In this document: positions 5,501-60,604 of the stretch, in pieces | Numbering within the stretch: the first letter of the stretch is position 1 | Layout of the letters: each line of letters opens with the position of its first letter | Assembly: GCF_963678975.1 (NCBI RefSeq) | Contig: NC_089280.1 | Coordinates: 14,211,280 to 14,275,279, forward strand | Source: Dysidea avara | Taxonomy: Eukaryota > Porifera > Demospongiae > Dictyoceratida > Dysideidae | Reading direction: 5' to 3' | Length of the DNA stretch: 64,000 nt | Position numbers and translations under genes: made by a program | The notes under the pieces: generated by a model | Told to the model about the DNA's origin: nothing | What the model saw: the letters and a program-made list of their open reading frames with translations, nothing else | Database searches by the model: none

Positions 5501-5717
5501 ATAACGGAGTAAGCTGCATGCTCTATTAGGGTGACTGTTCTATTATACTTATAGAGTATCTCGATCTCGCATTTGCTACACGGAGTTGGCTTTCGAATCA
5601 TAACTCAGTGGTTTATATTCTGATTCTTCTGTACTACTGCAAGTACTTTCTAGGATGAGTATTCCAGCTACATACCGATTTTCAGCTCACTGCTCTAAGC
5701 GGTTTGCCTGGTAGACG

Positions 5718-7422: not shown

Positions 7423-8771
7423 ATGGCTACAGCTCCACCGATTAATACTTTTGATTCACGTACGGATGATTGGAATTCGTGGAGCAGACGCTTCGAACAG
7501 TGGCTCACACTTAGTCCCTACGCTACGGGTGAAGGTTCTGAGGCCAAGCAATGTGCAGCCCTCTGCACATATATTGACTCCTCTACTTTCAAACTACTCT
7601 GCAGTTTGTGTGCCCCTAAGAAGCCAGAATAACTCACATTTGCTCAGTTGAAGGCAAGCTCGACGGACAATACGGCACCAAAAAGTTAGTCTTGGCTGAA
7701 CGCCATCGGTTCTACAACTACAAGCAACAAGAAGGGCAGTCGCTGGTAAATTACATTGCTGAACTACGGCGTCTGGCAGCCACTTGTGATTGGACAGAAG
7801 TCCAATTGGCCGACAACATCCACGATAAGTTCGTGATGGGCCTGCGAAATGAATGCTTACTCCAGCAATTGTTGGCTCAACATCACAAGAAACCACTAGA
7901 AGAGTTGTTAGAGCTAGCTCACACCTTCGAAGCGGCCGAGCATGAATCGCTCAAACGTGCCGGCAACGACAAGAAGGAGACGGACGCCGGCACAGTGGCA
8001 GCAACCGGGAAGCAACCACAGTCCGTTAAACCCCAGAACTCTCTTCGTACTAAGAGCCAGCGAACTGCTAATACTAAGGGTCCAAGCTTTCAGCCGCCAA
8101 CCTCCAAGCCATGTGCCAGTTGTGGAGGAGCACACTTAAGAAGCACCTGCCGTTTTCGCAATGTTACATGTAGACACTGTGGTAAGATTGGCCATATTGC
8201 CAAAGTGTGCCGCTCCACAGCAGCAGTACAAGAAATAATACCGGAACAGTCACTGGACTTAGCAGTCATTACCGTTAACAAAACAGCCGATAGTGATGAC
8301 AAACATATTCCCCCAGTGTTTCAAACTGTTTACTTACCAGAACTGGATAAACGTCTTCGTCTAGTAATAGACACTGCTTCTCCACTCACGTTCATTAACA
8401 CAAAAACCTGGGTAGACCTTCATCAACCCAAACTGGAGGCTACATCAAAAATGCTCGGAGCTTTTGAGGGTCAACCTATCCACCCTATTGGATATTTTCA
8501 GACAACAGTTCAACGCAAAGATGACCCTACCATATCCTCACTGCTGAAAATCTATGTCACTCAATGTGGCATTAATCTAATTGGCAGGGATGGACAAGTT
8601 AAACTTAACATCACTATTCACCCTGAGCAATTTGTCACAGCAGTTACCACACCCAGTACCACTTTACAGGAAATTATCACAATGGATGAAGCCCTGTTCA
8701 AACCACAACTTGGATGTTGCACCACATTTAATGCTACTTTAACTCTCCGTGAAGGCACTCAGCCTAAATAG
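7423..8771 (+). pseudogene. Gag-protease region of the Gypsy element, broken
   Basis: The gag start ATG (7423) is 12 bases after the 5' LTR. The frame hits TAA at 7630-7632, and the coding sense then continues in a different frame, entering the long frame from 7692 to the TAG at 8769-8771. Near 8110-8210 are two zinc knuckles: CASC..H..C, one residue short of CCHC, and a regular CRHCGKIGHIAKVC, used for RNA binding in the capsid. The protease core reads VIDTASPLTFIN: the catalytic Asp-Thr is kept but the Gly of the usual D[ST]G triad is Ala. The TAG at 8769 is in frame with the reverse transcriptase frame downstream. Readthrough is possible in some retroelements, but given the other lesions simple decay is likelier. 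Confidence 0.88.
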
Positions 8772-24366: not shown

Positions 24367-25380
24367 ATGCTGTTCAAGAGACCAAGATCACCCAATAGTA
24401 TGCCAGAGAAATCATCAGATAAGTCAGCTAAAGTAGATATATGTGTCAAATGTAATGAAACGGTGGTTGAAGATTGTATTTCCTGTGATTGGTGCTCTGA
24501 ATGGGAGCATAGATCCTGTGGCTCCATTCAAGAAAGGGACTTTGAGCTATGTAATTATGAAAATGTTGCATTGTTTTGCTATCGTTGCTTGCCAGATGTC
24601 TCAAAAGCCCTCTCACTTTACAACACCTATTCCAAACTTGATTCTGAGTTCGAAAAGAGATTTCAGTCTATGGAAGATAAGTTTCACAAAGGAATCGGTC
24701 ACCATCTTACTAAATGCTTTGAGGCAGCTAATTTAGCAGCCTTGTAGGACACTTGCAAAAAGCTACAAACATCAGTTAAAGACTTATCAACAAAAATTAA
24801 TGACCTGTCCACCTCTAGCAGTAACCTTCAGATGGAAATTAAAAGTACCTCAGTATCTTTAAACCCAACCCAATCTAGTTCTGTAGCTGTGCCACCAGCC
24901 GGCTCTGCTTTAAGTATAATTGATGAGCTTGCTGACCGTGACAGAAGAAAAAAGAACATGATTGTTTATAACCTACCTGAACCTGCTCCAAACAAAAGTG
25001 ATAGTGATTCATTTACTGTTATGTGTTCTTCTGTTTTCAATGGTTTGTATGCTATCACAAAATCAGTACAATTGGGGAAAAAGCTGCCTAACAAACACAG
25101 GCCTCTGTTATTGTGCTTAGAACACGAAGAAGACAAACTTATGTTGTTTTCTCGCTCTTACCTTCTACGCCATAATGATTCCTACAAGAACGTGTTCATA
25201 GCCCCGGACAGAACCAGGTTTGAGAGAGAAAAACATAAGAAACTGCTTTCTGAACTTAAACAAAGACGCTCACAAGGTGACGTTGACCTAATAATCCGTA
25301 ATGGAGCTATAATCACCAAACCTGCTAGAGGTAACACAGCTACTCACAACTCTGTACCTACTACAAATCAACATTCCTGA
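24367..25380 (+). pseudogene. LINE ORF1: PHD finger, coiled coil, RNA-binding-like domain; one stop
   Basis: A single frame from ATG 24367 to TGA 25378-25380, interrupted once by TAG at 24745-24747. Residues 26-78 carry a PHD/RING-like Cys-rich finger (CVKC...CDWC..WEHRSC...CYRC). A stretch around the internal stop is Ser/Lys-rich and heptad-like (coiled coil). After it, RRKKNMIVYNLPEP begins the RRM-like fold seen in ORF1 proteins of CR1/L2-type LINEs, which coat their RNA. ORF2 begins 31 bases after its stop. A PHD finger in ORF1 may direct the particle to chromatin; that is inference. Confidence 0.78.
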
Positions 25381-25411
25381 CAACTTTCAAAATAGCCTGA
25401 TTAACTGTTCC

Positions 25412-28313
25412 ATGTCTCATACATCTGATTTAAGCTATAGCAGCCAATTTGATTCTTCTCCTGGCCCCTGTACTTTTGATAACTCTGATTCCCCTAAAAT
25501 TAGTTTTAAACTACCATGGCTTGCCATTGCTAATTTTTGTAGTGTTAGAAACAAACAAGCTGAATTGGAATTGTTTCTAGATAATCAAGATATTCACTTG
25601 TTAATAGGAACTGAATCGCACTTAAACGATACAATTTTTGATTCAGAAGTTTTCCCCAGAAACTATTCTGTATTCAGGAAGGATAGGAATATTCATGGAG
25701 GAGGAGTATTTATCCTAGTTGAAAAATCCATACCATCATCAATTCTAGAGATAGACTCAACTTGTGAAGTTATCTGGGTCCTTTTACATCTCCAACATTC
25801 TCATGACATCATCCTGGGAGCTTTCTGTGCTCCTCCAAATTCTCCATCATCTGTATGGGATGAGCTCTCTGAAAGCTTAACACAAGTAAGACAAAAATTT
25901 CCAACCACAATTATCATATTGGGAGGTGACTTTAATTGCCCTGGGGTGGATTGGTCATCTGGTTTACTTATGGACTCTTATGTAACATCGACTTTCCGAG
26001 AATCCTTGATAACACTAGCTCATGATTTTATGTTGGGACAAACTGTTAATTTGCCAACCAGAGATAATAACATTTTAGATTTGTGCTTTACCACCCACCC
26101 TGACTATATCCATCAGTGTATAACAGTATCAGGCTTCAGTGACCATGAGACAGTTATTGTAGAACTGGCCAATCTTCAGGTTGGCCACAAGAATGTTCAG
26201 AAGAAAATATACCTTTATAATAGAGCAAACTGAGATATAATTAGGGAAAAGGTCTCTACAGTTTCAAACATGTATTTAACTTTGAATGAAAATAGCTCTA
26301 GAACTGTGGAACAAAATTGGAACTTTATTTATGAAAGTATTTTACAAATCGTTAAAGACCATATTCCAGCTAAGCAAATATCTACATCAAGTTGCTTACC
26401 ATGGATGACCTCTCAACTCAAAAGGCTGATTAAAAGAAAACAATGTTTGTATAAGTGAGCTAAAAGGTTTAAACGCCCTTCTGATTGGAAAGCATATAAA
26501 GACATGCAATCCCAAGTACGATCTGCTTTAAAGCAACAGCACCTTAAATATCTTACTAGTAGTCTAAACTCAGATTGTGACAATAACAGAAGAAAAACAT
26601 TTTGGAGGTTTATAAAGTCTCAAAAGTAGGATACAACTGGAATTAGCACATTACAGACACCTACTGATCAAGTAACTACACCCAAAGAAATTGCAGAAAC
26701 TTTAAATAACCAGTTTAAATCTGTCTTTACAGAAGAGGACTTGGAAAGCATCCCTGAAATGCCAGCGTCCTCATATCCATCTATAAACAACATCAATATA
26801 TCACCAAATGGGGTTTTCAAAATACTATCTGAGTTGAATCCCTATAAATCCCCTGGCCCTGATGCTATCTCTGAACATTTAGTAAAACAAACTGCTGCTG
26901 AAATTACTCCGATGCTGACCCATCTCTTTCAACAATCTTTGTCCTCTGGTGTGGTCCCTAGACAATGGAAACTAGCACATGTCACTCCCATTTTCAAATC
27001 TGGCAAAAGATCTGTCCCACAAAACTACCGACCAGTATCTCTAACATCAATCATTTGCAAAGCAATGGAACATATACTCACAAGTCAAATTATGAAACAC
27101 TTGGAAGCTCATGATATCTTAGTCCCCTGTCAATTCGGCTTTAGATCAAGACATTCCTGTGAATCGCAGCTGTTTACTGTTACTGATGACTTTGCAAAAG
27201 CATTGAATAATAAACTCCAAGTAGATGTTGGTATAGTAGACCTGTCCAAAGCATTTGATAAAGTTCCACATAAAAGACTGCTAAGCAAAATTGAATTCTA
27301 TGGCAGTAGAGGCAAGATTTTACAATGGCTAGAGTCTTTCTTGAGCAATCGCTACCAACAAGTTGTCATAGATGGTTCCTTTTCTAATCATTGTAAAGTC
27401 ACATCGGGAGTACCACAAGGCTCAGTTCTAGGTCCTACCTTGTTCTTACTGTACATAAATGATATAACTGAGGGTATCAGTAGCCAAATGAAACTCTTTG
27501 CAGATGATTGCTTAATATACAAAGTTATTCACAGTTCAACAGAGCATCAAACACTCCAACAAGACTTGACAATACTGTCAAAGTGGGCAGATAAATGGCA
27601 AATGGCTTTTAACATCAGCAAATGTAAGATAATGTAAATTTCTAATCACCATAACAAAAGTTTATTTTCGTATGTAATGAATGGCACCTCACTGGCAGTT
27701 ACAGAACAACATTTGTATCTTGGAGTAAAGTTACATCACAGACTTTCATGGAAACCACATATAGATTACATCCGCAATAAGGCAAACAGAGTTGTTGGTT
27801 TTTTGCTACGAAATCTTCAGCATTGTCCTAGCCATCTACGTGAGCTAGCATATAAACAATTTGTCTTGCCTATTTTAGAGTATTGTTGGGATCCACATCA
27901 CCAAACCAACATAACTCAAGTAGAGATGGTCCAACATAGAGCTGCTCGTTTTGTCACAGGTCAACCATGGAGACGAAATAATAGACAGCATCACTAACAT
28001 CCTTGAAAACTTGCAATGGCCTACGCTACAAGAACGTCACAAATCAGCTAGACTAGTTTTACTATATAAAGTACTACATGATTTATTAATTATACCGAAC
28101 TGTTATCTCCCATTTAAATCTACTGTATTACGGACCCGACACTCACACAACTTTAAACTAGTACCTTACCAACCAAGAATTGATGTATATAAATATTCCT
28201 TCCTCCCAAGAACTGTACCAGGATGGAATAGATTAGATGATGAGATTATTGAGACTGACTGTGTTGAAGAATTTAAGCAAAAATTAGCCCCTTCTATGTA
28301 TATAGTTCAGTAA
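25412..28313 (+). pseudogene. LINE ORF2: AP endonuclease and reverse transcriptase, broken
   Basis: One frame from ATG 25412 to about 27997 carries the whole protein except its end. An apurinic endonuclease comes first (GTESHLND with the catalytic Glu, GGDFN, SDHETV), then reverse transcriptase ([27 protein letters not shown], and catalytic FADD at 27497-27508). In-frame stops lie at 26231 (TGA), 26456 (TGA), 26627 (TAG) and 27635 (TAA). A frame change at about 27950 moves the C-terminus into the frame ending at 28313. Both TGA stops are one C-to-T step from CGA, as expected from decay of methylated CpG. The catalytic residues look intact. Confidence 0.88.
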
Positions 28314-28522
28314 CTTATCGTAATTGTATATATTTTTATAGTTTAGTATTGTAATTGTACATATGTATATAATTAAGTAACTTATCGTAATTGTACATAC
28401 TTATATAGTTAAGTAACTAATTGAAATTGTACACATGTAATTGCACATCAGCATTATACCCCTGGAGGATCCTGCTGATTAACAATAAATAAATAACTAT
28501 TGAACCTCAAACTTTTTGTGGT

Positions 28523-30426
28523 TTGAAAGAAATCGAGCTAAAAACCACGAAGATACAACGAAAAAACCAACAGTGCATAAAAATTATGGAATCGAGATTA
28601 GCTAAGTGCTGTCGGGACGATACTATCAATCATTCAGTTTCTGTGTCTGCGAGTTATCATTCTAACCCTAAGAGATTTTGGCAATGGATTAACTCAGTTA
28701 AGAGGTTTAGAACTCCAATTCCTCCACTGTCTCATGCTGGACATAACGTTGCAGATGATTCTGAGAAGGCTGGTGTTTTTAATCAGTACTTCTGTTCAGT
28801 TTTTACAAAAGAAGATGTATCGAATCTTAATGAGCTTAAACCTAAGATCTCGCCAGTTACTACTATTGATTCAATCACAATTTCACCTGATGATGTTCTT
28901 GGCCAGTTGAGCTCTCTGGATGTTACAAAGTCCTGTGGCCCTGATTGTGTTACACCTTGTATGCTGAAGCTAACAGCTGATCATGTGTGCTATTCACTGA
29001 GTAGAGTGATGAATAAGTCTGTTATTTCAGGATCGTTACCTTTTGACTGGATTTCTGCCAACATTGTTCCCATTCATAAGAAAAACGACCGACATTCTCC
29101 TGACAATTATCGTCCAATGAGTTTGACCTCAATCATTGTGAATGTTTTGGAACGTATAATTCACAAACATTTATATTCAGTATTGAGAAAAAATGACCTT
29201 TTGAGTCAGCACCAGTATGGCTTTCAACCGAATCGTTCTACAACTACACTTCTGCTTCAAGCTTTAGATGACTGGACACTCTCACTGGAGCGCCGTGAGT
29301 CTGTTCACTGCTTGTTTTTGGACTATGCCAAAGCTTTTGACTCGGTTCCACATGAACGGCTACTTCTGAAATTAGAATCCCTTGGGATAAGTGGTAATCT
29401 GTTAGAATGGAAGCGCCCCTTCCTTACTAAGAGATTTCAGAGGGTGGTTGTAAATGGTTCTTACTCAGATTGGGCACCAGTCACTTCTGGAGTGCCACAA
29501 GGGTCTGTTCTGGGCCCTCTGTTGTTTTTACTTTACATAGATGAGCTGTCTTCAATACCTAATGTGTGCAAATTAAAGCTGTTTGCCAATTAAAGCTGTT
29601 TGCCGATGATGTACTCCTTTATTTTTGTGTGAAATCAGTGAAAGATTGCCAGCTATTACAGAATGATCTTTCTGCTATAGTCTCATGGTCTAAACTGTGG
29701 CAGCTTAATTTGAATCCTCTTAAGTGTGAGGCTTTATCTATTACCAACAAAAGGAAGCCTATTACTTTTACTTATTTTATTGGAGATCAACCACTACAAT
29801 GGACTAATATTGTGAAGTATCTGGGGATTCAAATTAATAGCAAATTACAATGGTCTACTCAATGTCAGGCTGTTGCTACTAAGGCTACTAGGGTTTGGAA
29901 TGTTTTAAGACGTACCATGTTTGGGTGTGATTCGGAGGCTAGATGTAGAGCATACAAGGCTATAGTAAGGTCACTGTTGGAGTATGCTTGTGTAGTGTGG
30001 TCACCACATACTGCTAAAGATGTGAATTTGTTGGAGGCTGTCCAGAGACGTGCTGCATGGTGGGCTTGTGGTAGTCGTTGGAACCCAACCACATGTTCTT
30101 GGTCTCTTTCCCATGAAACCTGTTATCAAAAGTTGCATTTACCTCCCTTGTGTTCCAGGCGTGACTATTTATCAGTTTGTACTCTTCAGGACATTCGTCA
30201 CAATGGTTCCATTCCTTTTCTGAAGTACTGTACTTACAACACGTTGGCTACACGTAGTCATTCTCTTTCTCTTGTACCACCCCTGTCAACAATTAATGCT
30301 AGGAGGTATTCTTACTTTGTACGGGTATGTTTTGTCTGGAATCAAGTGCCTATTGATATCTTGGGAATTGCAACCCGTACTGCTTTTCGCCATGCTGCAT
30401 ATAAACACTTCTGTGGCATTTTCTAA
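28523..30426 (+). pseudogene. LINE reverse transcriptase with a 17-bp duplication at the active site
   Basis: The first frame (28523-29593) carries reverse transcriptase motifs: [41 protein letters not shown]. It stops just before the catalytic box because AATTAAAGCTGTTTGCC is exactly duplicated in tandem (29571-29587 and 29588-29604). The sense continues in the next frame with FADD at 29599-29610, the thumb-like region and a C-terminus closing at 30426. Apart from this duplication I see no other stop, so one small lesion appears to have killed an otherwise intact frame. The endonuclease is missing through 5' truncation. Confidence 0.88.
29571..29604 (+). repeat. Perfect 17-bp tandem duplication
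   Basis: Two exact adjacent copies of AATTAAAGCTGTTTGCC; because 17 is not a multiple of 3 it shifts the reverse transcriptase frame at its catalytic motif. Confidence 0.97.
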
Positions 30427-35970: not shown

Positions 35971-35973
35971 AGC

Positions 35974-36469
<496 letters not shown>

Positions 36470-45705: not shown

Positions 45706-45743
45706 CAAATCATCTTCTCCACTCTGTGTACCAATGCTATAAT

Positions 45744-46069
45744 ATCTAATCAAAAACAGCCAAGCTGTAAAAAAAGGTGCGGCTCCTAAAAAGGCCAAGG
45801 TGAAAAAAGATGTGAAATCCAAGGTGGCGGCCAAGAAATGGCTGTGATGGTAGGTTAATGGTAAAAATTTAAATAACGACAATTCAGGTGAATTTTGTGC
45901 CAAGACCAAGCGGCACCAAATTCACCTGAATTGTTGTTATTAAAATTTTTACCATTAACCTACCATCACAGCCATTTCTTGGCCGCCACCTTGGATTTCA
46001 CATCTTTTTTCACCTTGGCCTTTTTAGGGGCCGCACATTTTTTTACAGCTTGGCTGTTTTTGATTAGAT
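45744..46069. repeat. Long palindrome, 5' module of composite repeat B
   Basis: Near-perfect inverted arms (ATCTAATCAAAAAC / GTTTTTGATTAGAT) and nearly identical to 2651-2978, including the loop. Confidence 0.92.
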
Positions 46070-46254
46070 ATCACTTCTTTTTGTATTTGTATACCCCAAA
46101 GCTGGCCATAGGCTGGCTTTGGGGCTTTTTTAACCTATCCTATTTCTTTACCACAGGAAGAATAAAAAGACAGAGCAGATTTTTAATACTTCAACTGTTT
46201 TTGATTTTATCAGTAATTATATAAATATATTTATTACATGTCTATTATTCCCTA

Positions 46255-48151
46255 CTGGATAACTTGTTCGCAGCTGATCTTTCTACTAAGGGACTTGAAA
46301 TGTAGCTAAACTCTCTACAGGTTGATTTGTTTGTAGCTGCACTCTCTACAGGGTGATTTGTTTGTAGAAGAACTCTCTACAGGATAGTTTCTTTGTCACT
46401 GAACTCTCTACAAGGTGACTTGCTTCTAGCTGGCTCTCTACAAGATGACTTCCTCTAGCTGATTTCTCTACAAGGTGACTTGTATCTAGCTGAACTATCT
46501 ACAGGATGATCTGTTTGTAACTGAAATCTCTACAGGGTGACTTGTTTCTAGCTTATCTCTCTATAGGGTAACTTATTTCTAGCTGAACTCTCTACAAAGT
46601 GGGTTCTTTGTAGCTGAATTCTCTACAAGATCACTTCTTCTAGCTGATCTCTCTATAGGGTGACCTGATCTCTCTGTAGGGTGACTTTTATCTAGCTGAA
46701 CACTCTACAGGGTGATTTGTTTGTAGCTGAACTCTCTACAGGGTAATTTATTTGCAGCTGAACTCTATGCAGGATGATTTGTTTGTAGCTGAACTCTCTA
46801 CAGGATGGTTTCTTTGTAGCTGAACTCTCTACAAGGTGACTTGCTTCTAGCTGATCTCTCTACAGGGTGACTTGTATAGCTGAACTCTCTACAGGGTGAT
46901 GTGTTTGTAACTGAACTCTCTACAGGGTGATTTGTTTGTAGCTGATCTCTCTACAGGGTGATTGTTTGTAGCTGAACTCTCTACAGGGTGATTTGGTTGT
47001 AGCTGATCTCTCTACAGTGGGTGATTTGTTTGTAGCTGAAATCTCTACAGGTTGATTTGTTTGTAACTGAAGTCTCTACACGGTGTTTTGTTTGTAGCTG
47101 ATCTCTCTACAGGATAATTTGTTTGTAACTGAACTCTCTAGAGGGTGATTTGTTTGTAACTGATCTCTCTAGAGGGTGATTTGTTTGTAGCTGATCTCTC
47201 TACAGGGTGATTTGGTTGTAGCTGATCTCTCTACAGTGGGTGATTTGTTTGTAACTGAAATATCTACAGGTTGATTTGTTTGTAGCTGAAGTCTCTACTC
47301 GGTGTTTTGTTTGTAGCTGATCTCTCTACAAGGTAATTTGTTTGTAGCTGAACTCACTGCAAGGTGATTTGTTTGTAGCTGATCTCTTTACAGGGTGATT
47401 TGCTTGTAACTGAATTCCCTATATTGTGTCTAGTTTCTAGCTGATCTCTCTACAGGTTGATTTATTTGTAGCTGAACTCTCTACAGGGTGATTGGTTTGT
47501 AGCTGAACTGTCTACAGGATTGTTTCTTTGTCACTGAACTCTCTACAAGGTGACTTGCTTCTAGCTGATCTCTGTAGACGGTGACTTCTTCTAGCTGATC
47601 TCTCTACAGGGTGACTTGTATAGCTGAACTCTCTACAGGGTGATCTGTTCATAGCTGAACTCTCTACGGGTTGATTTGTTTGTAGCTGAAATCTCTTGTT
47701 TCAAACTGATTTCACTGTAGGGTAACTTGTTTGTAGCTGAACTCTCTACAGGATGGTTTCTTTGTAGCTGAACTCTCTACAGAGTGATGTTTTTTGTAGC
47801 TGAACTCTATATAGGGTGATTTGTTTATAGCTGAACACTCTGCAGAGTGATTTGTTTGTAGTTGATCTCTCTACAGGGTTTCTTTGCAACTGAGATCTCT
47901 ACAGGGCAACTTCTTCTAACTGAGTTCTCTCTTGTTTCTAGCTGTTCTCTCTACAGAGTAACTTGTTTGTATAGCTGAACTCTTTACAGGTGGTTTTTTT
48001 TGGTTGCTGAACTCTCTACACTGTGACTTGTTTGTAGCAAAATTCTCTACAGAGTGACTTGTATGTAGCTAAATTCTCTACAGAGTGACTTACTTGTAGC
48101 TGAACATTGTATAAACTATAAAGTGACTTGTCTGTAGCTGAAATCTCTACA
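46255..48151 (+). repeat. 31-bp minisatellite array (copy B)
   Basis: About 60 imperfect units of the 31-bp repeat seen at 4040-5500. A longer-range pattern is visible: the GATTTG-TTGTAGCTGATC...GTGGGTGATTTG block near 46985-47090 recurs near 47205-47310, so segments of several units have been duplicated together. Confidence 0.93.
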
Positions 48152-48589
48152 CACAGTAAAAACAAAGTAGTGAACGTCACTACTTTATGTAGTGACGTTC
48201 ACTACTTTTAGAATCACTACAACGTAGTGAATTATCAAAGTAGTGAAGGTCACTACCAATGTAGTGACGTTCACTACATTTTAATTCACTACGTTGTAGT
48301 GAAATCATAATGTAGTGACGTTCACTACAAAAAGTAGTGACCTTCACTACATTTTAATTCACTACGTTGTAGTGAAATCATAATGTAGTGACGTTCACTA
48401 CAAAAAGTAGTGACCTTCACTACATTTTAATTCACTACGTTGTAGTGAAATCATAATGTAGTGACGTTCACTACAAAAAGTAGTGACCTTCACTACATTT
48501 TAATTCACTACGTTGTAGTGAAATCATAATGTAGTGACGGTCACTACAAAAAGTAGTGACCTTCACTACATTTATAAATTTTTACTATA
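48152..48589. repeat. Left terminal inverted repeat and subterminal array
   Basis: The 33-bp terminal repeat runs into about a dozen copies of GTAGTGACGTTCACTAC or close variants (arms GTAGTGA/TCACTAC around three bases). From about 48288 they form a regular 73-bp higher-order unit repeated about four times. Each copy contains TGACGT, a CRE half-site. In CACTA elements such repeats bind the element's own protein. Confidence 0.88.
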
Positions 48590-49099
48590 CATCAATATAA
48601 CAGCATGTCAAGAACACTGTTACTGTCAAGAACACTGTTACTGTCAGTAACATTTACATTGGTATATAAAGGACAGTTTCTGAGGTATCATAACAGACTA
48701 TAAACCAAAATTGCAGGTTGATAGACTAATTCTTTAAATAAAATGTTACCTCTGAAAAATGACAACCTCTATATAACAGTATGGTCACAAAGTGTCCACT
48801 AGAAGTATCATCTGCATATTTCACCACAACTATGTAAACTTGCTGTGTATTCACAGTAGTATAGGCTAAATGTAGCAAAACAAAACAAAATATCTGATTG
48901 TACATATGTGAGTGTGGGTGTGTGTGTGCATGTGTGTGTATGTGATAACACTGGAAAACAGCAGTCATGTATTGTAGCCTCAGATTTTCTATTGGTAGGG
49001 ACTATACAGTACATTTGATAAATTTCTAATTTGAAGATTAAGATTCCACCCGAAGCCATTTATTGATGTGAAAAGGATGCTTATAAGATACTATGAGTT

Positions 49100-49370
49100 T
49101 GCACATGAAAGATCACGACAACCTTTAGAAATTTGCAGGGGATATGGTATGGGATGCTGCTGTCAATGCTAAGGGATGCTGCTGTCAATGCTAAGGAGCT
49201 AGGATTTACTTCACAAAGGACTTTCATTCATTGATTAGGTTCAATATGCACTTCTGCAGGAATGTCAATGAAGTCTTTGCAGACATTCTACTAGGCTGTA
49301 GTAAGCCAAGTAAAAAAGTTTTGACTACTTTTCTGGACATGGGGAAACTAGGCAAATCTGATGTCAAACT
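49100..49370 (+). pseudogene. Decayed paralogue of the exon at 53960
   Basis: The stretch reading FNMHFC..NEVFADILLGCSKP and TFLDMGKLG (about 49228-49350) parallels FYMHYT..NFYAALESILLGCNKP and AFLGRLG at 53.96-54.27 kb. The upstream part holds a 22-bp tandem duplication (GGATGCTGCTGTCAATGCTA, 49153-49196) and no open frame. I read it as a dead copy of the same exon. Confidence 0.5.
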
Positions 49371-49539
49371 GTACTCATAAATTTTAGTATGTAAATGCTA
49401 TAAATACCTGCATTTATGAAACCACTAAACTTTCACATTCGTGTAATCAAAATGGTAAATGTAAAATATTGTATAACATCAACTATACGTACTGTTAAGT
49501 TTAACAATGGAATATATGTATACGTATAATGTACATACG

Positions 49540-49610
49540 TAACAAAAACACATCTTTGACCAGCTTCTGCTTTTCTTTTCATCTTTCATCCAGCAGTGGG
49601 CAGAACGAGC
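49540..49610 (-). CDS. Possible terminal exon, minus strand
   Basis: On the minus strand a T-rich tract ending TTTATTTACAG precedes GCTCGTTCTGCCCACTGC, giving ARSAHCWMKDEKKS. This resembles the exon at 54560-54667 (ICNGHCMMKDKKEV) at the same distance and orientation from the neighbouring plus-strand exon relic. No domain is recognised and the true end is uncertain. Confidence 0.3.
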
Positions 49611-50318
49611 CTGTAAATAAAAAACAATATATCATGTACATGTATCTGGAAACATAGACATTTTGTGAAATGTGCCTTGTTCCGTATTTATTAGGGATGA
49701 AAAAATTACTCACTAAGGAAATTCACTCAGACAGTAAAGATGCGTGCTTTCTAGAATCCACTCAAATTAGCTCATTATGTCACACGACCATACAAATCCC
49801 CTTCTAGCCTGAGTATTCCTAGGGTTTGCAGGTCGAGACATGGTCGGGGTTTACATTGTCAGTACTTACCCGGTAGGTGGGCAACTATAATTTTCAGTGA
49901 TGCAAATCCCCACCTTGGCCAGGCAATAAGAATGTAAAGCTTCTCTAATTGCAAGTCCTGATTTTGACTTGAAAGGCAAGCCATGCAAATGGTAACCCAG
50001 AACCTTTGCATTATGCAATGTTTCAGAGTCTAACTGTTATGCTTTAATTTATAATACAACAAATACTGTATTGCCTTGAGTTATGCACCTATCAGTGTAA
50101 TCCCCGACTACCACTGATACAGGGTGAGGTGGGGGCAAACAGGCTGTGTGAAATAGTTCACTTGTGAAGGTGGGTTGATATTTCCCTGGTTGAGAATATG
50201 TAGCTGACACAGATAGATAGTCTGGGCATGTGAAACTATGTTGGGTGGAGGTGCATGTGTGTGGAGTATTTTCTGTCCAGCTTTAGACTATAGAACAAGT
50301 GCCCGCAAACAACATATA

Positions 50319-51335
50319 TGTGACCAGATTTGCGAAAAGGGGTCTTCCACACACATCTAATTTACCAAATTTAATGACTCATAACCAGACCTCTTAACTA
50401 TCACAATTTGGTCATGAGACGCACGATTTCAGCCTTCATATCACGACCACTTGTTGATCTCACGATTTCCAATAAAATTTTCTAAGGCACACTAAATCTC
50501 CTTGATTTAAGCCCCAAAAGGTATCACGTGATCAGTTAATTAGAATAGTGGGGCGCCTCTGTATTTTGAGCTGAAAATTTTGGCGGTTTCCCATACTTTT
50601 GAATATGTCACGATCAAGTCACTTTGCTGCCAAACTCAATGAACTGAGCCCTATTTAAAGGTGAAATCCTTTGAGAAAAGACTCAGCACACTGAAGAATT
50701 AGGTGAAATCCTACCAGTTGTGTTATTACAAATGTTTATTGCTTAATTTCGGTTGTTGTGAGGTGTACTTGTGTGGAAAATCTGTGCTGAACACTAAATC
50801 CACAGCTGGATACTGATTACTCAAGAAATGGATGGTGATTTCAACAATGAATCACTGGTGAACCAGTACATCAGCTGAGTTGAAAGACTGATATCACGTG
50901 ATTCAACGATGGAGCAAAATAGTAGGTTCTTCTCATATAGTAGGCTACACTATAGTACAGAGATATTATAAGCTGCGGTAAACAGCAGTACTGCACTCAC
51001 ATAGCTAGCTAGTTGTGCCTTTTAAAACATTTTTTTTGTTAAAACAAATGTAGCTATGTGCATGAGCCCCAGCACAATGATGGTAGGATTCACAGCTGCA
51101 TGGGGATGGGTGGCTGGCTTTCTCACAACCAGATCTGCTTCCAGGTTGAGAGGTCTGTCATAACTTTAGACTGAAAAGGCTATTGATTACAAAATTGGAC
51201 AGTAGTGAGCACTAACATAGTTTAATGGTTGGACAAATTTTCAAGTTAATACATTCCTTGAGCAGTGAGTTATGGACTTCTGAGTTCATAGAATTGGATG
51301 TGTGTGGAAGACCCCTTTTCATAAATCCAGTCACA
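50319..51335. mobile_element. 1-kb inverted-repeat element, TA target
   Basis: Imperfect inverted ends of about 40 bp (TGTGACCAGATTTGCGAAAA on the left; the right end mirrors TGTGACTGGATTTATGAAAA), both followed inward by GGGGTCTTCCACACAC. TA flanks each side, as for Tc1/mariner-like elements. The interior has no transposase and no long open frame. Confidence 0.7.
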
Positions 51336-53959
51336 TACCGAGTAACCATTAATTATCTATGAAGGAACACACCTAACACTCACACTTAAGTTTCATGATG
51401 ATTCTGTATAAGGCCACCCCATGTAGTTTCCCATCATCCGTCCAGCATCGTGTCTGGGCTCCACATATGTCCCAAAGTCAGCAATTGCGCCCTGAACTAT
51501 TAGAATAGTAAAGTTGTACGAAAGTATTAGAATACTCATACAGGATCCATCTATCAACAGATTAATGAATCTCTAGACGTAGACTCGTATGAACCGAGAA
51601 GTTTATTACCATCACTAAACTGGCAAACGTGAGTTACGTGTGCAGTTTGCTCAGTAACTTACATAGCACGGTAAATGTAACTGTATCATCCCAGGACTGG
51701 GCAGAGTTTGCCTCTCTGCCCACTGTTTAAGTGTTTATTTATATTATTATCATTGTCAAAACTGTATCGTTGCCATTTCTAAGCTTTATAGTTAACACAT
51801 TGATTCGAGACAATATAAAGTCAACTCATAAACTGTTGCATGGTATGACTGATCATTTTTTTCTCGGGCTAAATGGACTGTGGCACGTGCGGTGCCAGCA
51901 GCTGATCGAAGAGCGAACTTGTACATGTACCTGAAAGCCCATCCTTGGAGAGACATCATCTGATCAGCAAAATAAATACCTGTGGATGTTTTTCAGTATT
52001 AGCTCCCACTGTTTATCCGCTGAAACTTATAACAGCCCATTGCTTTTCAACTCCTTCTAGACAACAAAATCCATTTAACAGAGCCCGGTTGGGGGTAATG
52101 CATTACGTTATATTACTTTCTGCAGTAATTATGTATGTGCTGCATGACAAAGCAATGAGTAATGTAATTTATAATGGACATTACATCCGGAAATTGTAAT
52201 TCATTACTTCTAATGTACGTTGTATCCAGCACATGATTGATTACATTTGGGCCTGACAACACTGATATAGTGTATGGGGAGTGTCCTTCTATAACAAAGA
52301 AGTTTTTATGGCTGAACTATACCAGAGAAAGTGTGGCTCATTGGTGTCACTTGTAGTTATAGGTGTCAGAAGGTTGCACTTAGTTTAAAGCTTATAGTGA
52401 ACAAGTGTATAATGTGTAATAATAGTTACTGAGTGGACCCGTTTACAAATTACAACTACTATAGTATGTTCACGTTGAGCTGAACCCTCAAAAACATTTA
52501 ATAACTCATGGATGCAATTACACACGATCTTGAAATTTGGCTCATTTGTAGTACTGCTTGACCCGCTAAAAATATTTCAAAATCTTGTTGTTCAAATGTT
52601 AGACATAATATTTACAGTCAATCAAAATTTTCACAATACATTTCCTATGGGGAAGCCATATAAGTACAGTGTCCAATACAGCCCTTTCCCGAACTTGTAA
52701 TGGAGCCAAACCGTACGTGTCTGTTGTTGACACCTTTGCTGTTACCAATAATCATCTAGTTGGCTGAAATGTTAACTCTGTTGAGAAAAAATCCACTTTT
52801 AATTTTTAGGCGTTTTTCAGGATTCAGCTCAACGTGAACATACTATAGTTGTAGCCCTCAGAGTAATGACTTTTTCTGAGAGTAAACTTTACTATAATGT
52901 GTTCTATTGTTGTTGTCATAGTTGTTGTATATACGTATAATATTTTGAATATGTGTGTTCACAACTAGTCAAATACATGATATTTCAAGCAGATCATTGT
53001 TTTGCGTTGCATTCCATAGGGCTTTGATACTGCCAACGAATGATAAGTGCTGAGTGTTTGTTGTCGCCGAACTGTTATTTCAGATGTACCAAGGACTTCA
53101 TAGCCATGAAAATGATGATGATACATGACTGTATGCAAAGCTGATGTAACAAATAATACTTCTTCACATGTTACGATGATCTCCATTATCTTCCCAAAGG
53201 ACGGTAAGTTATTATCAAATTCAAGTATAACAGCCATATCTTTGTGATATATCTTACTCCATCAGTTGTAATTTTGGTATTTCTGTAAAAACATGTACGT
53301 ACATGTCTAGTGAGTTTGTGAAACAGTATTAATCAGTTTTGCCTTTCCTTTACTATGTACAGTATGCCTTAGCAATACAGTCTCACATAGCCAGGTCACT
53401 GTACTTTTCTTTTGTGTGTGGATAGGAAAAATGGGACTAAACCTATAGCGGACTAATTGTATATTATAGTTGTATATTGGGATGGGGTGCATTATATAGA
53501 CATACTAGAATATCTATAGACTTGAAATGTTGTACAACAAAACTAAATGGTTGTCTTTGGTTTTCCAGAATTTAGTTAGGCTTATTGTTGATCCAGAGTG
53601 CTAATAAGGAACTATGAGTTGCAACCCACAGCTGAACAAATAGCTGGCCCTTTACAAGCAGCTAAGCCTTCAAAGCTGCTTTTAATATAGAAATGTAATA
53701 AAACAAGATTGTTAATTTTTTTCTTTTATATGACCATGGCAAATTATTTGATTGGTGGCATACTAGTTGATGTAAGTCAAATTATATACACAAGCAATAA
53801 TACTGCATGTGATGACATACAATCAAGATTTTTGGAGTTTTAATTAATACTTAGAGCACATGTCTTACAACAAATACATTAGAATGCATTCCCTCAGTAT
53901 TTTGTGTGTGCATAAGTACGCTAGACCAACTTATTGACATTTTTTGTTGCATTTGAAAG

Positions 53960-54268
53960 GATGGAAGCACAGAAGATGTAGTAAAACAGTTGCCCATGGC
54001 ACAACCATGTATTGTTGTAAAGAGGGATGAGGAGAACAAACTACAGCCCGCTCTTGTGGCTGAGAGATCAATTCTTTGTGTGGTGCCACCAGAGCTGACT
54101 GCCATCCATCTATTGGGTGCATTTTACATATTTTATATGCACTACACAGAGGGCTGCAGCAACTTCTACGCAGCCCTTGAATCCATTCTCCTTGGCTGCA
54201 ATAAACCAGGTAGAAAGACTCGTTTGGCTGCTTTTCTGGGGAGACTAGGGTACTCCAATGAAGAATGA
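53960..54268 (+). CDS. Probable terminal exon, SAMD3-like C-terminal region
   Basis: An open stretch of about 102 residues begins just after AG (53958-53959) behind a T-rich tract, and ends in TGA at 54266-54268. It contains VAERSILCVVPP, AIHLLGAFYIFYMHYTEGC and ESILLGCNKPGRKTRLAAFL. The pattern of an aromatic-rich helix (FYIFYMHY), then a leucine-rich helix and a Lys/Arg stretch, resembles the C-terminus of SAMD3-like proteins common in sponges and cnidarians. That is family resemblance from memory, not a search. Upstream exons were not found. It lies inside the 11-kb element, with a decayed paralogue at 49100-49370, so it may be cargo of that element. The frame is intact. Confidence 0.5.
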   Translation, partial: DGSTEDVVKQLPMAQPCIVVKRDEENKLQPALVAERSILCVVPPELTAIHLLGAFYIFYMHYTEGCSNFYAALESILLGCNKPGRKTRLAAFLGRLGYSNEE

Positions 54269-54559
54269 TACTAAACTCTATAAACAAACATGCAGTACTG
54301 TGTACTCATGGCAATGCTCATATTGTGTGTATGTACTCATAGCATACTTATATGCACTCTCATAGCGTATTCATTTACATGTACTTTCATAGTGTATTCA
54401 TATTAGTAATAATGTACAGTACTCATGTAAACTTCATACTAACGTATTCTAAGGAATATACAGTATTTTATGCTACATAGTATATACTACGTAAATAAAC
54501 CACATACAGTCTAGAATTATAGTACCTTAACATCTAAGATAATAATACCGAGTATCTAG

Positions 54560-54667
54560 TTATGTTTTTAAATGCAACGTAGCCAAGCTGAAGACACATC
54601 CTTTGCCAGCTTCTTTCCAAGTTACAACTTCTTTTTTATCTTTCATCATGCAGTGGCCATTACAGAT
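54560..54667 (-). CDS. Possible terminal exon, minus strand (paralogue of 49540-49610)
   Basis: On the minus strand TTTTCTATTGCAG is a good acceptor, followed by 35 codons and a TAA (54560-54562). The peptide starts ICNGHCMMKDKKEVVTWKEA and contains GKGCVFSL. No domain is recognised. It lies 290 bases beyond the plus-strand exon at 53960-54268, the same layout as the decayed pair at 49.1-49.6 kb, so the two genes were duplicated together. Confidence 0.4.
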   Translation of the reverse strand: MCNGHCMMKDKKEVVTWKEAGKGCVFSLATLHLKT

Positions 54668-55504
54668 CTGCAATAGAAAACAATACTTAAAACTGAAAAG
54701 ATATAATGAAATAATAACAAATATTTTGTGACTGCATATGTGATTGGCTGAGCAAAGACCGGTTATTTTCGCCCATTCCTTGGATTCTATTTTATTGCTT
54801 CTCCGTTATCTATAGTAACAAAAGGAGTGGACAAAGAAGAAGACCATTCCAACAATGAAGTGACCATGGTAAACTTAATTTTTACCGCATCACCCATAAC
54901 TCACATGGCTTCTGATGTATATACATGAAATAAAGATTGTCTTACTCCCCATGAAAAGGCAAATATGATGGTTTATATAGGTTTTATTGATTCGTACTTT
55001 GTTTCAGTACATAAAAACTAAAACATGCATAATTTTTTACGTAGCATGCATATTTTTATACTCAGTACCTTTAAACCATACAAAAACAGCTGGTTTTCGC
55101 TCACTATTATAACTGTGGATAATTGACTCTGCTATATCTGATTACTACAGTTCCATTAGCTACAGTATTAAGTAACTCTTGGTACCTCCGAGTTTACCCT
55201 TAAAGCTTCTGAGAAAGCTGGTACATGTCTCAGTGACACTATCATTTGGCAGTGTTTCATGTAGGGCTGGTGGTGAGAGTATTCACGGCAGCAGGCAATC
55301 ATATGCATGATTCAATTTGTGAATGGTTATCGCTATCATACAGAAGCGATCATGGAATTGAATTGAATAAAAGCCGATAACATATAACAGGTTTAGCATC
55401 ATCCTGTTTCTTGCAGTATTGAAATGTTAAATATTTGCTCAGCACTTGCATTTACTGGAAGTGATACAATACAGACTGGAAATACGGCTGGTCAAATATA
55501 AACA

Positions 55505-55720
55505 CAGGGGCAGATCCAGGGAGTTCAAAGGGTTCCATGGAACCTCATTCTGGAAATTCCCCATGCTAAATCTGCCATTGCCTTGGTTCCATTCCAAGAT
55601 GCCAAAATGCTCCAAATGGCTCTCTATAAATTCTCTCTTGAAAAGCACCCTAGTGATATGACTATGGTTGACAGTCTCACAGTAAACAATGAAGGTACAA
55701 GATACTCTAATAGAGCATAC
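55505..55720. mobile_element. hAT-like MITE fragment
   Basis: Begins CAGGGGCAGATCCAGGG, matching the ends of the element at 14700-15023, and closes near GATACTCTAATAGAGCAT, the reverse of the TATTAGAGTATC phrase in that family. The right end is not clear. Confidence 0.45.
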
Positions 55721-55739
55721 CAATACTACAAGAACAATG

Positions 55740-57035
55740 GCTGGTCTCCGTAGTCAAGCGATGAATAGATGTTTGGTTCCCCTTTTGCATTGGTCCCATC
55801 AGCAGCATATGGATAATATAGTAATTGTTTAAACAGAACGACTTCTGAATTTATTTCTTGAGGCCGCACAATGTAAAAATGTAAGGATTCCACCCACACC
55901 CTACTAGAAAGAGTACTACCCTGACAGCACCCACTCCTTCACAAAAAGAGGAAGGGTCTGGTCACTCTCACTATAGCATTACAGAGTTGTAACTATGGAA
56001 TATAATTAAACAATGAGATCACAATGGCAGCAAGAATGGCATGTTTAACAACCATACAAAGTATAAGTATATATAGGTTAAACAAACTTAACCAAAAAGC
56101 ACAACCAAAAAAATATTTTCATATTGATTAGGCATCACGAGTACATCAGCTCCAACTACATGGCCCTCTACCTCCATCTTTTGTTCTTTTAAAGAACACC
56201 CTATTGTTGACTACAAGCAGCCATTACATCTTCACAAAACATATTACATAATTCCAAGAGCTATTATTAACTCTTGATAATTCTATAGTATCAATGCATG
56301 GTAACTTAAAAAAAAATTGTGAATACCAACAACATAATCTGATTGGCACAGCCTGCTTTCTGTAACATGCTACTGATTTGAATGCTAGAGTAACCGGACC
56401 AGGATGGGCACTGGCACATTATACAGTAACTGAATTAAAATAACTTGACCAGAAATGAAAATCTTCCAAAGTCGAGGCTTCATATTCTGGGAATGGCATT
56501 ACAAGACCAGTGAGCTCTTTAGGATGTCTTCGGAGTGAGCTCCATAAAAGGTTATCACAAAATGATCTCAGTAGTATTTCTGACCCTTTAAAGAACTCTT
56601 AGATAACAAGGGAAGAACAAAAATTTTGGTCTCAACAGTTATGGTTAATACATTTTTTTACCTCTGAAAGAGGAAAACCTGCAAAAAATGGATAAAAATT
56701 CTGGGTCCCAAAATAGCACATGAATAAATAGTACATGAAATCAGTCAATAGTGAGGACAAACCTATCCATAAATATTGAGGTCTGGCTGACATTGACCAC
56801 AGTTGCAGGTCGCACAGTGGACTGGCAGCTAGTATCCTAATTAATGCCTGCACATCCACAAACTTTGGCACAGTCGCAATGTGTCATTGGGTTCAGAAAA
56901 GAAAAGAATGCCATAAATTCATTTTCCAGGTCAGTAGTCTGGCCATGCAAGTATATATATAGATATATATATATAATAATAATAATAATAGTGAGAGACT
57001 ATTGACCCCGGGCCATCAATAAATAATGTCAGTAG
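55740..57035. other. No recognisable gene inside the 11-kb element
   Basis: AT-rich sequence with short open frames only. A run of ATATATATAT followed by six TAA units lies at about 56950-56990. Confidence 0.45.
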
Positions 57036-57039
57036 CATA

Positions 57040-57295
57040 TAGACCCTTTGCAGGTGAGCTGCTGCCATAGCAACATTCACCATTTTGGAGTACAACCTGA
57101 TTTGCAACCCTGATAGCATAGGGGAGAGCGTACGTTTAACCTACATGGTCAACCTTTGCAGTGGAATGCAGGAGAAGCAGCCCTAGGTATTGTTTTACTC
57201 TTATGAAAAGCAATGCTATCAGGTTTGCAAAACTGGTTGTACTCCAAGATGGCGGATGCTGCTATAGCAGCAGCAGCTCACCTGCGAAGGGTCTA
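57040..57295. mobile_element. Palindromic MITE, TA target
   Basis: The arms starting TAGACCCTTTGCAGGTGAGC and ending with the mirror of TAGACCCTTCGCAGGTGAGC are about 60 bp and nearly perfect, including ATTTTGGAGTACAAC / GTTGTACTCCAAGAT. TA flanks both sides. No coding capacity. Confidence 0.78.
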
Positions 57296-57680
57296 TAGCC
57301 ATACCAGGGATGGCGATGACCAGGGTTAGAGCCCTGATAATCAGTCAAAGTACCGGTAATTTGTCAGTTTAAAGTGCTATTAGCCCTGGTAATAACATCT
57401 TAAAACCTTCGTAATTATGAAAGGCTGGCCATAGACAGTATATTGTACGTAGAATATACTATCTATGGGCTGGCTAACGCCGATTAATTCAAATGTGTGT
57501 TTACAGTTACAGCTTGTTTACTTACGATTTTAACCAGACTAATCAGGAACGGTTGATTACAGACGATAAACACTATAGATCTTCAGATATAGAGTGCATA
57601 GCACTAAGCAGTAGCACCAGAGGTAGCACCTCGAGTAGCATCATGTCAAGGAAACTCTAAATAATGCCACATATAATTGA

Positions 57681-57688
57681 TGACGTCA
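57681..57688. promoter_or_regulatory. Perfect CRE (TGACGTCA)
   Basis: Lies in the 12-bp palindrome GATGACGTCATC, upstream of a moderately GC-rich stretch (57780-58060) with a strong splice donor at 57935. It is plausibly part of a promoter for the transcript described next. Confidence 0.5.
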
Positions 57689-57719
57689 TCTACTTGGTAA
57701 CATCGTTGCTCACTTAGTT

Positions 57720-58591
57720 ACGTGCTGTAGAAGTCGTGTAAGTGGAAGACTAATAATTGTTCTTTTACTTCTGTTTTCTATTGACTAGAGACTGTTTCGT
57801 AACTGTGACGTGCGGTCAGGTGGCCGCAGAGTGGTCTCCCGAGTCAACTGAGTAGGCTAGGCAGCTTAGCACTGCGTACCTCTCGGCGTACCTAGTAGCT
57901 GTTGCATTTAGCAAGTGGTTAACAATTCAGAAAAGTAAGTCTTAAATTGTAATTATTTGTTTTACACTTTTGCACACGTAGACTACCCCAGCCAGCAAAG
58001 TTGGCTGCCCGCCAATTTCCCGGCGCCGGCACTGTAGTACCAGAGCCGAGAGGTGATGAAGTTTGGGGCTTTCATTTTAATATACCATAAGGTATAGCAC
58101 ATAGTAACTGAATTGAGTGATGGAGTACTGACACTTATGGTGTGACTGGCGGTTGCTTACAAACTGGATTGTGTACGCTGACGTATTTTAGCTTTCTGAC
58201 ATATCTGAGCTTCACATTTTTACCACTACTAGCTAATCACTTTTTTTTGTTTTCTGTATGTATGCATGTTTGTCAGTTTTGTTCTTGTATTTACCTTGCC
58301 GTGCCCACGCAGATCTTTTACTACGATCTGATTGTGGTTGCACGAGACTGAGCTAGGTCGCACATACTGTAAGTTAACTCTACTTATTGTGTTTTCTCAT
58401 TTATAATAATGATGGTTCTCTCTCCATGCAGTAGCCGATTGATATTCATTGCAGTGGTGTATACCTGTGGGGTACTGCTGTGTGTCTGCAAGTGTTTAAG
58501 GTTTGTAGCTTTAAACAACCATTCTGCAGTTAAAATGTTGGTTGGCAGTTTAGGTAATAATGACTTTCCATTGGTAGCAGTATTAAACAGG
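57720..58591 (+). other. Candidate spliced transcript, coding status unclear
   Basis: After the CRE, a GC-rich stretch ends at AATTCAGAAAAGTAAGT, an excellent donor near 57935. A pyrimidine-rich acceptor (CTCTCTCCATGCAG) lies at about 58433, and the open stretch from ATG 58409 to a donor (AACAG|GTAAATG, near 58591) encodes up to 61 residues with one hydrophobic segment (RLIFIAVVYTCGVLLCVC). If the acceptor at 58433 is used, that ATG is in the intron. So this could be a short membrane protein, a 5' leader, or a non-coding RNA. No protein family is recognised. Confidence 0.3.
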
Positions 58592-59120
58592 TAAATGCTT
58601 TAGCTTATTACATTGGAGATTGTTTACGATCTTTGTTTCTTGATATAGCGAATACTGCAAGACTAGCAAATGAAACAATTTGCTACCACTATACTGTGGT
58701 TACTAATAGGAACTGATCTAACATATCAGATGGTTATACCATGCACCCATCCCTTACGCACAGTTGTGCAATAGTTGGTAAGTGCATATATGTTTATCTC
58801 ATATTACATATCAACAATTATTTTATCACAGCATAAATCATGTACATCTGCTCTATTGTAGCTATGCTGGTAAGATTTATTTAGCTACCATAGTTTGTAT
58901 TATATTGTTATATCTTGCAGTTCAATGAGAAAACTTGCAATATACACTGCACAGTATCTGATGCATCTTTGCTGCTGCAGAATCTTCTCACAAGAAATTT
59001 CTGGACTAACATGTATGCACCTATACAAAAAAACTGACATTTTGTATACATGTATTTTTACTTGTATGCAGTATTATTTTTAATGGAATTCTATGGTGCA
59101 TGAATGCATAAACTGGATGC
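58592..59120. other. AT-rich sequence with possible splice sites
   Basis: Possible acceptors (TTGATATAG near 58650, ATATCTTGCAG near 58920) exist but no convincing exon follows. Nothing else is seen before the right subterminal array. Confidence 0.4.
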
Positions 59121-59121
59121 A

Positions 59122-59409
59122 AATGCGATGTAGTGAAATCACCGCAAATAAGTAGTGACGTTCACTGTAAAACAGTAGTGAAGTTCACTACTAATGGCAC
59201 TGCAAGTAGTGACGTTCACTACAGTTATTAGTGACGTTCACTACAGTTGGTAGTGACGTTCACTACAATTAGTAGTGACGTTCACTACTTTTTTGTAGTG
59301 ACGTTCACTACAAAAAAGTAGTGAACGTCACTACACAAAAATAGTGAGTATTGTGGCAGAGGTTTCACTACTAATTAGTAGTGACGTTCACTACTTTGTT
59401 TTTACTGTG
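59122..59409. repeat. Right subterminal array and terminal inverted repeat
   Basis: About nine copies of GTAGTGACGTTCACTAC or variants, less regularly spaced than on the left, end in the 33-bp terminal repeat (59377-59409). Two neighbouring copies near 59287-59336 form a larger palindrome across ACTACAAAAAAGTAGT. Confidence 0.88.
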
Positions 59410-60604
59410 CAGGGTTACTTGTTTGCAGCTGGTCTCTATAGGTTAACTTGTTTGTATAGATGAACTCTCTACAGGGTAGTTTCTTTGTAGCTGAACTCTC
59501 TCCACAGTGACTTGTTTGTAGCTGAATTCTCTAGAGAGTGTAGCCAAACTCTCCACAGGGTGCATGACTTGTTTATAGCTGAACTCTCTTCAGTGTGACT
59601 TGTAATGTTCTGATTCTTCTGAATCACTACAGTGATATATCTGCATGTAGCTGAACTCTCTATAGGGTGACTTACTTCTTGCTGAACTGTCTATAAGATT
59701 AACTGTTTGCAGCTGAACTCCCTACAAAATAACTTGCAATGTACTAGAATTCTATAATGGATTAAATGAATTAGCTGAATGCTCTATTAGGGTGACTGTT
59801 CTATTAGAGTATCTCGATCTCGCATATGTTACACGTAGTTGGCTTTGGAATCATAACTCAGTGGTTTGTAATCCGATTCTTCTGTACTACTGCAAGGACT
59901 TTCTATGATGCCCATTCCAGCTACACACCGATTTTCAGCTCACTGCTCTAAGCGGTTTGCCTAGTAGGCGCGAAAACTAATAGTTTTTTTATTGATAAAA
60001 ATCGATCGCGTAATTGTGACACAGGTTGGGTTTTGTGTCATATCTCGATGGCCTTTAACTGGATTCCTTTCAAACCACAAAAAGGCACTCCTACGATAGT
60101 TACTCCATCTACATAGCAATTTTCAGCTCATTCCTTCAAGCGGTTTACCCTGTGAGCGTGACAGACCTTCAACCTTATTTTACGCAAATAATCGGTCATA
60201 ACTCGGTGAATGTTCATCGGATTCCTACCACACGTGGTACTGAGATTCGCCTTAATGAGCCCTTTAAGTGTGCCAAATTTCAGCCCTATTGGAGCACGAA
60301 TTCGTGTTTTATGGCGGATTTTGCAAACTGTGCGAAAAGAAGAAATAGAAGAAGAAAAACGAAGAAAAAAAACTCTAACTTTGGTCGATCGTATCTCGGA
60401 AATGGATGGAGCGATGTTCTTCAAATTTGGAATGTGGACTCCCCTACCTAGCTGGCACTTCTGTAGCACCTTTGGTTTCAATCGGATAAGGAATCACCGA
60501 GATACAAAGGTGTGAAAATCGCGTTTACTTTCTTCCTGTAAATATACTCACGGTGTGGCGCGCCGGCTTCTTGGGCCGCACGACACACTACCGTGTGTCT
60601 TGAT
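59410..60604 (+). mobile_element. Composite repeat copy B, right part with 3' hairpin end
   Basis: Resumes the 31-bp minisatellite (59410-59745), then carries the complete tail: CTCTATTAGGGTGACTG, TATCTCGATCTCGC, two GCGGTTT(G/A)CC boxes, GGCGCGCCGGCTTCTTGGGC, the hairpin GACACAC-TACC-GTGTGTC (60582-60599) and TTGAT. The phrases GAGATACAAAGGTGTGAAAAT and TTGGGCCGCACGAC recur in copies D and E. Open frames in this stretch are shared among repeat copies and are not genes. Confidence 0.83.

Follow-up and report, generated by a model that had tools for sequence, protein, structure and literature searches.

A 64-kb window of the genome of the sponge Dysidea avara (64,000 nucleotides, contig C9, positions 14211280-14275279) contains, at window positions 48152-59409, a segment that a preliminary description had taken for an 11.26-kb CACTA-like element with exon-like cargo, of a type not known to have been described. 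The locus raises the question of what this segment is, where its exon comes from and how it came to move. We favour, with a probability of about 0.9, the reading that it derives, as a non-autonomous copy, from a CACTA/EnSpm (tnp2-type) DNA transposon family. In favour of this are its ends, the duplications of 2 bp, the related copies and a relative of 19.1 kb that has transposase exons and a second gene. Seen in this way, a puzzling "cargo element" turns into a recent CACTA family of an early-branching animal, complete with a likely source copy, siblings and empty-site logic. Positions given without a contig refer to the window; the genome that we searched comprises 550.8 Mb in 108 contigs (the published assembly has 575 Mb in 162 scaffolds according to the accessible part of PMC12909245, so that ours would be a different version).

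The insertion and its family

The segment is a single inserted unit. Its junctions read CTCTACA/CACAG on the left and ACTGTG/CAGGG on the right, which gives a CA duplication, and excising it in silico restores a 31-bp minisatellite unit (joined flanks CTCTACAGGGTTACTTG). The joined flanks can be aligned across the junction with an uninterrupted host copy at 4623-5723 (77% over 1,130 columns). These observations bear out the preliminary description in the exact coordinates of the insertion, in the perfect 33-bp inverted ends (48152-48184 and 59377-59409) and in the CA duplication, which is seen at both flanks. The termini are CACAG...CTGTG, in agreement with the CAC...GTG ends of CACTA/EnSpm elements, and the subterminal repeat arrays of such elements are present as well: all 20 palindromes of the form TAGTGA-N1-5-TCACTA detected in the window belong to the two ends (12 start within 48168-48554 and 8 within 59176-59379), and none was found elsewhere in the 64 kb. 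Single-strand folding of the ends is much stronger than that of shuffles (z -16.4 and -9.6), as expected, because the arrays are palindromic. In both arrays the palindromes centre on GTAGTGACGTTCACTAC, and the left array probably consists of protein binding sites.

The window element belongs to a transposon family. A genome search with 32 bp of the end returned 210 places at up to one mismatch, 53 of them exact; the same end read backwards, used as a control, had no match at that threshold. Ends were paired within 20 kb from 100 of the 210 places, exact ones first, and this gave 21 convergent pairs of exact ends and a 22nd, on C2, with a one-mismatch partner. The pairs span 69 bp, 2,832 bp or 7,033 to 19,125 bp; ten exact ends, besides the one on C2, had no partner among the places listed. 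The search for inverted end pairs of varying length that had been proposed for the 33-bp ends was thus successful with the 32-bp end. At least 11 further places on seven other contigs came from a search with the whole element (11 of 9,413 candidates scored). An identical 2-bp duplication borders every one of the 15 pairs, out of 22, whose flanks were read (10 by script, 5 by eye), and none of the 15 has a 3-bp duplication of the plant type. The target dinucleotides on the + strand are TA (6), TG (5), CA (3) and CG (1). In other words, all are pyrimidine-purine steps, an outcome that by our estimate would be met about once in a thousand million with dinucleotides taken at random. As a trait, the target rule is clear-cut and can be checked.

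The copies also point to recent movement. Kimura two-parameter divergence from the window copy ranges from 0.0033 to 0.034 over 16 copies (alignments of at least 500 bp). The copy at C3:48272782, the right end of which was not found, is 99.5% identical to the window copy over 8.4 kb, and the one at C6:29807069-29818159 is 99.7% identical over the 3.3 kb read. Three pairs are close to the window copy in length (11,261 and 11,258 bp on C4, 11,091 bp on C6) and carry both its left arm (97-100%) and its middle segment. Since their flanks differ, with the duplications TG, TA and CA, they represent separate insertions of one shortened type, which is the outcome expected from mobilisation in trans; four copies of this type in different surroundings, the window's included, suggest that such mobilisation took place. 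The element is best read as recent, non-autonomous and of CACTA type.

These siblings also bear on whether two separate short inverted-repeat elements might simply face each other here by chance, a case that the preliminary description had itself raised. One end pair does span only 69 bp, and a different palindromic repeat with a similar ten-base core, CACAGTAAAA, is common in the genome (12,172 matches versus 3,586 for a control, 3.4-fold). However, excision restores the host unit, and siblings of nearly equal length with the same interior occur elsewhere; the restored empty site and the siblings of 11,258, 11,261 and 11,091 bp exclude the case at this locus, so that we regard its probability as negligible.

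Three observations on the ends may be added. We rejected the ten-base end CACAGTAAAA as a family marker, since at most of the loci read it belongs to the different palindromic repeat, of which CACAGTAAAACAATAAG is an inner part (L001, L003, L006 and L008). One-mismatch matches make up 157 of the 210 end matches, and in 43 of the 47 listed C replaces G at position 16; this points to a related family of ends, larger than the first. The 69-bp pair, C7:22509684-22509752, consists of two exact, convergent family ends and is perhaps a minimal or end-to-end remnant.

The longer copy and its two genes

As the preliminary description had noted, no transposase was found in the window copy: Pfam gave nothing above cut-off for its interior (10 of the 158 open reading frames of at least 35 amino acids were searched). 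The longest pair, C12:10003353-10022477 (19,125 bp, exact ends, TA duplication), is different in this respect. The left arm of this pair is 92-95% identical to window 48624-51449. Around its second gene 3.3 kb were read, of which 2.0 kb match window 53766-55727 (94%) and all match a second C12 copy (97%). The latter, at C12:20784190, is broken by other elements; it corresponds to window 53766-59409 in order, down to the same right end, and is interrupted near element position 9524 by an insertion of 11.9 kb. No left end of this copy was seen as far as 20810000.

Transposase exons of the 19.1-kb pair lie at C12:10011924-10015977, with the second gene on the other strand. The part at 10011924-10012864 matches a 200-residue stitched transposase start at 93-97%, that at 10013580-10015977 matches the relative P0005 at 52-67%, and the 2.5 kb read of this region hold three exon-like frames, one of them with FYDELEVCNPLGSKAKKHKLG. 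A 357-residue stitched query found 20 relatives at 1e-5. Among the 21 aligned rows (the query and these relatives), Pfam at E of 0.01 or below gave Transposase_21 (PF02992) in 10, with a best E of 3.2e-6, DUF4218 in two and Plavaka in one. The alignment as a whole matches the tnp2 protein P0004 in hhalign with a probability of 98.4 and E 4.8e-15, over 406 columns at 8% identity. The transposase start resembles a C2H2 finger at scores below the Pfam cut-offs. Judged by these comparisons, the family carries tnp2-related (CACTA) transposase exons; the gene of the 19.1-kb copy is putative. A source copy with transposase had been sought from the outset, and this longer copy is the likely one.

The broken C12 copy also holds P0004 itself, an open 902-residue Transposase_21 (tnp2) frame, which might be taken for the enzyme that moves the family. 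We rejected this candidate and consider it very improbable, as the frame lies in a separate, nested 6.3-kb element with other ends and 3-bp duplications. This CACTA element (C12:20790025-20796340) recurs at C3:28806823-28813138; both copies measure 6,316 bp, are 99.9% identical and have the 902-residue frame open. Its ends are CACTACTCTAAAA and CACCACCCTAAAA, its duplications TAC and AAA, and it has moved recently. It shares CAC ends and a tnp2 transposase with the family of the window element but differs in its duplication length, in its ends and in having no comparable palindrome array in a self-comparison.

As to the interior, the preliminary description had seen paired exon-like sequences on both strands. 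One of them is real (53957-54265, 97% to the D. avara protein P0001) and another, at 49240-49362, is weak; both lie on the + strand, and the pairing on both strands was not confirmed. Upstream exons of P0001 were found in three places: in both C12 copies and at C1:33367675-33377167. Further upstream in the broken C12 copy, on the same strand, there is a SAM-domain frame (SAM_2 24.1 bits, cut-off 20.5; SAM_1 22 bits, cut-off 23), with a hAT element between it and the downstream exons; judging from order and strand in that copy, the second gene may have this frame as its first exon. For the stitched second-gene protein of 424 residues, no relative was found at 1e-5 among 4,557 candidates; its likeness to SAMD3-like proteins is a presumed one. 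The layout of the two genes recurs at three diverged loci (C4:9554622 with 9557311, C1:51498509 with 51495776 and C15:12294479 with 12291947). There, the C-terminal exon lies 2.1-2.4 kb from an oppositely pointing transposase start, with identities of 32-35% for the exon and 27-29% for the transposase start (weakest E 3e-5), and further transposase exons follow each pair. These are three of the 12 more distant exon loci; the other nine have no transposase neighbour within 5 kb among the matches listed.

Could the exon have been captured from an ordinary host gene, as in transduplication of the Pack-CACTA type? The element holds one coding exon but lacks those that precede it in the matching gene, as capture of this kind would leave it. 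Nonetheless, the version with upstream exons sits in the family copy C12:10003353-10022477, beside the transposase gene, and all 10 close copies of the exon (93-97%, the window's included) are surrounded by sequence that matches the element outside the exon itself. Moreover, the two genes stand head-to-head at the three diverged loci, which are known as gene pairs, and no source gene for the exon has come to light so far. For the exon, we therefore think capture from a host gene unlikely. Our preferred reading is that the window exon is what survives of a second gene that belonged to the element itself, because the upstream exons lie beside the transposase exons in the longer family copy and the same layout is seen at diverged loci. 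The notion of an undescribed cargo type found no support: the exon represents the end of a second gene, which in the longer copy adjoins that of the transposase, and related genes are arranged alike at three loci.

Derivation, movement and comparison with known systems

Compared with the 19.1-kb copy, the window copy lacks approximately C12:10009505-10018961, where the transposase and the greater part of the second gene lie, and carries 51450-53765 instead. In what was read of the two C12 copies that have upstream exons, this middle segment has only short, low-identity matches at its left edge; it may share parts with other stretches of these copies. In four other copies (C1:17740548, C1:44175643, C2:23502641 and C7:2824135), the sequence passes from about element position 3298 directly to 6198-6228, a larger loss with the same left edge. 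The window copy is best read as a non-autonomous derivative. It would have arisen by the loss of some 9.5 kb of interior, with 2.3 kb of other sequence in its place, and the exon would be what remained of the second gene. To move, the window copy would depend on transposase from a copy of the 19.1-kb type. This enzyme may bind in trans to the palindromes near the ends of the short copy, perhaps with the help of the second protein, cut at CAC...GTG and insert at a pyrimidine-purine step with a 2-bp stagger. Movement in trans, an early suggestion, finds support in the sibling copies and in the longer copy with its transposase exons.

The features fit known systems in part. Plant CACTA (En/Spm) elements such as Spm and Tam1 have CAC...GTG ends, subterminal repeat arrays, two genes and dSpm-type derivatives moved in trans, and the sponge family shares the ends, the arrays, the presence of two genes and the non-autonomous derivatives. 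Its second gene, which we take to encode a different protein from the plant second gene, stands head-to-head with the transposase gene, unlike in plant CACTA. Transib, with its 5-bp target site duplication, is not matched, as the sponge family makes 2 bp only. Most members of the CMC/CMCT group (EnSpm, Mirage, Chapaev, Transib, Plavaka) have CA..TG ends, and the group makes 2-5 bp duplications, according to the accessible part of PMC12730594; the sponge family fits on both counts. A further mark of the group is a pair of motifs, C(2)C and H(3-4)H, after the second D and before the last E; CRxC and KxHxxxH can be made out in a consensus built from the aligned relatives, which is not that of the family's own exons. 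As far as the available portions of two accounts go, animal CACTA-related TRC elements make 2-bp duplications and have CCC ends, both in SmTRC1, with the duplication in 7 of 14 copies (PMC1636069), and in Spongebob/EnSpm-4N1_HM (PMC4298943). The sponge family shares terminal inverted repeats and the 2-bp duplication with both, and a tnp2-related transposase with SmTRC1, but starts with CACAG instead of CCC; those portions mention no SAM-domain partner gene. A literature search, with Repbase outside its scope and papers accessible in part, found no such partner gene in CACTA elements, and the word stem "transpos" is absent from the main text of the D. avara genome paper (PMC12909245).

The assignment to CACTA, and the reality of the insertion as first described, are upheld by the end census, the 2-bp duplications, the siblings and the longer copy with tnp2-related exons. 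Several points weigh against it. The literal CACTA core is not present in the terminus, which is CACAG. The family duplicates 2 bp versus the 3 bp of plant CACTA, in which ORF2 supports transposition in specific families (both after the accessible part of PMC4158355). The stitched transposase query itself has no Pfam match, only its relatives do, and some exon matches carry stop codons, although at exon 10013580 these sit at the edges. The 19.1-kb copy was read in 3.3 kb, 2.5 kb and two 18-bp ends, the remainder being known from search matches, and its right part was compared over 2.0 kb only, up to window 55727.

It is a tentative idea, to which we give rather less than even odds, that these features define a sponge CACTA lineage in which a SAM-domain gene is paired head-to-head with a tnp2-type transposase gene with a C2H2-like start. 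The SAM protein could form polymers along the subterminal palindromes and join the ends, which would make it the equivalent, in an animal and with a separate origin, of plant TNPA; insertion would be restricted to pyrimidine-purine steps. If the pairing of the two genes is repeated, an accessory function in animal CACTA elements would become testable. Both the target rule and the SAM-domain partner gene are worth following.

Features and other repeats of the window

Coordinates of the element, its parts and its insertion site in the window
Feature	Position	Strand	Basis or remarks
Whole element, read as non-autonomous CACTA-type copy	48152..59409	+	11,258 bp; paired ends, related copies
Left terminal inverted repeat, 33 bp	48152..48184	+	perfect repeat; 32-bp census
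Right terminal inverted repeat, 33 bp	59377..59409	-	perfect repeat; 32-bp census
Left subterminal palindrome array, GTAGTGACGTTCACTAC type, 73-bp period	48164..48574	.	repeat and palindrome scans, folding
Right subterminal palindrome array, 22-bp period in part	59152..59400	.	repeat and palindrome scans, folding
Left arm	48620..51449	+	whole or part in 24 copies, including the window's and the 19.1-kb C12:10003353-10022477
Degenerate fragment like C-terminal exon of second gene	49240..49362	+	44% over 45 columns, E 4.7e-5, weak
Stretch found at 15 scattered places	50386..51157	+	genome search, 81-91%
Middle segment	51450..53765	+	present in C3:48272782 and C6:11253533 copies; absent from C1:33367675 copy
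Last coding exon of second gene, 103-residue frame	53957..54265	+	97% to D. avara protein P0001 residues 68-169
Internal inverted repeat	57038..57297	.	inverted-repeat scan
Host minisatellite array left of element	46249..48151	+	repeat detection, junction reading
CA target site duplication, left copy	48150..48151	.	flank reading
CA target site duplication, right copy	59410..59411	.	flank reading
Remaining host array and tail right of element	59410..59976	+	84% to 5160-5723

Within the element, the stretch at 50386-51157 is probably an older nested repeat, and the internal inverted repeat is possibly a small nested element. Rfam at the gathering threshold and a tRNA scan gave no matches in the 64-kb window. 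Elsewhere in it, a 430-bp repeat pair (2645-3076 and 45738-46167, 92%) holds in each member a 330-bp stretch that is 94% palindromic, and 35972-36469 consists of GCT repeated 166 times with 99% matches. Adjoining frames at 7620-11361 resemble a gag-pol retroelement, presumably with zinc knuckle, reverse transcriptase and integrase, judged by eye. Several frames at 25313-30426 resemble, by eye, the endonuclease and reverse transcriptase of non-LTR (long terminal repeat) retrotransposons and apparently belong to more than one element.

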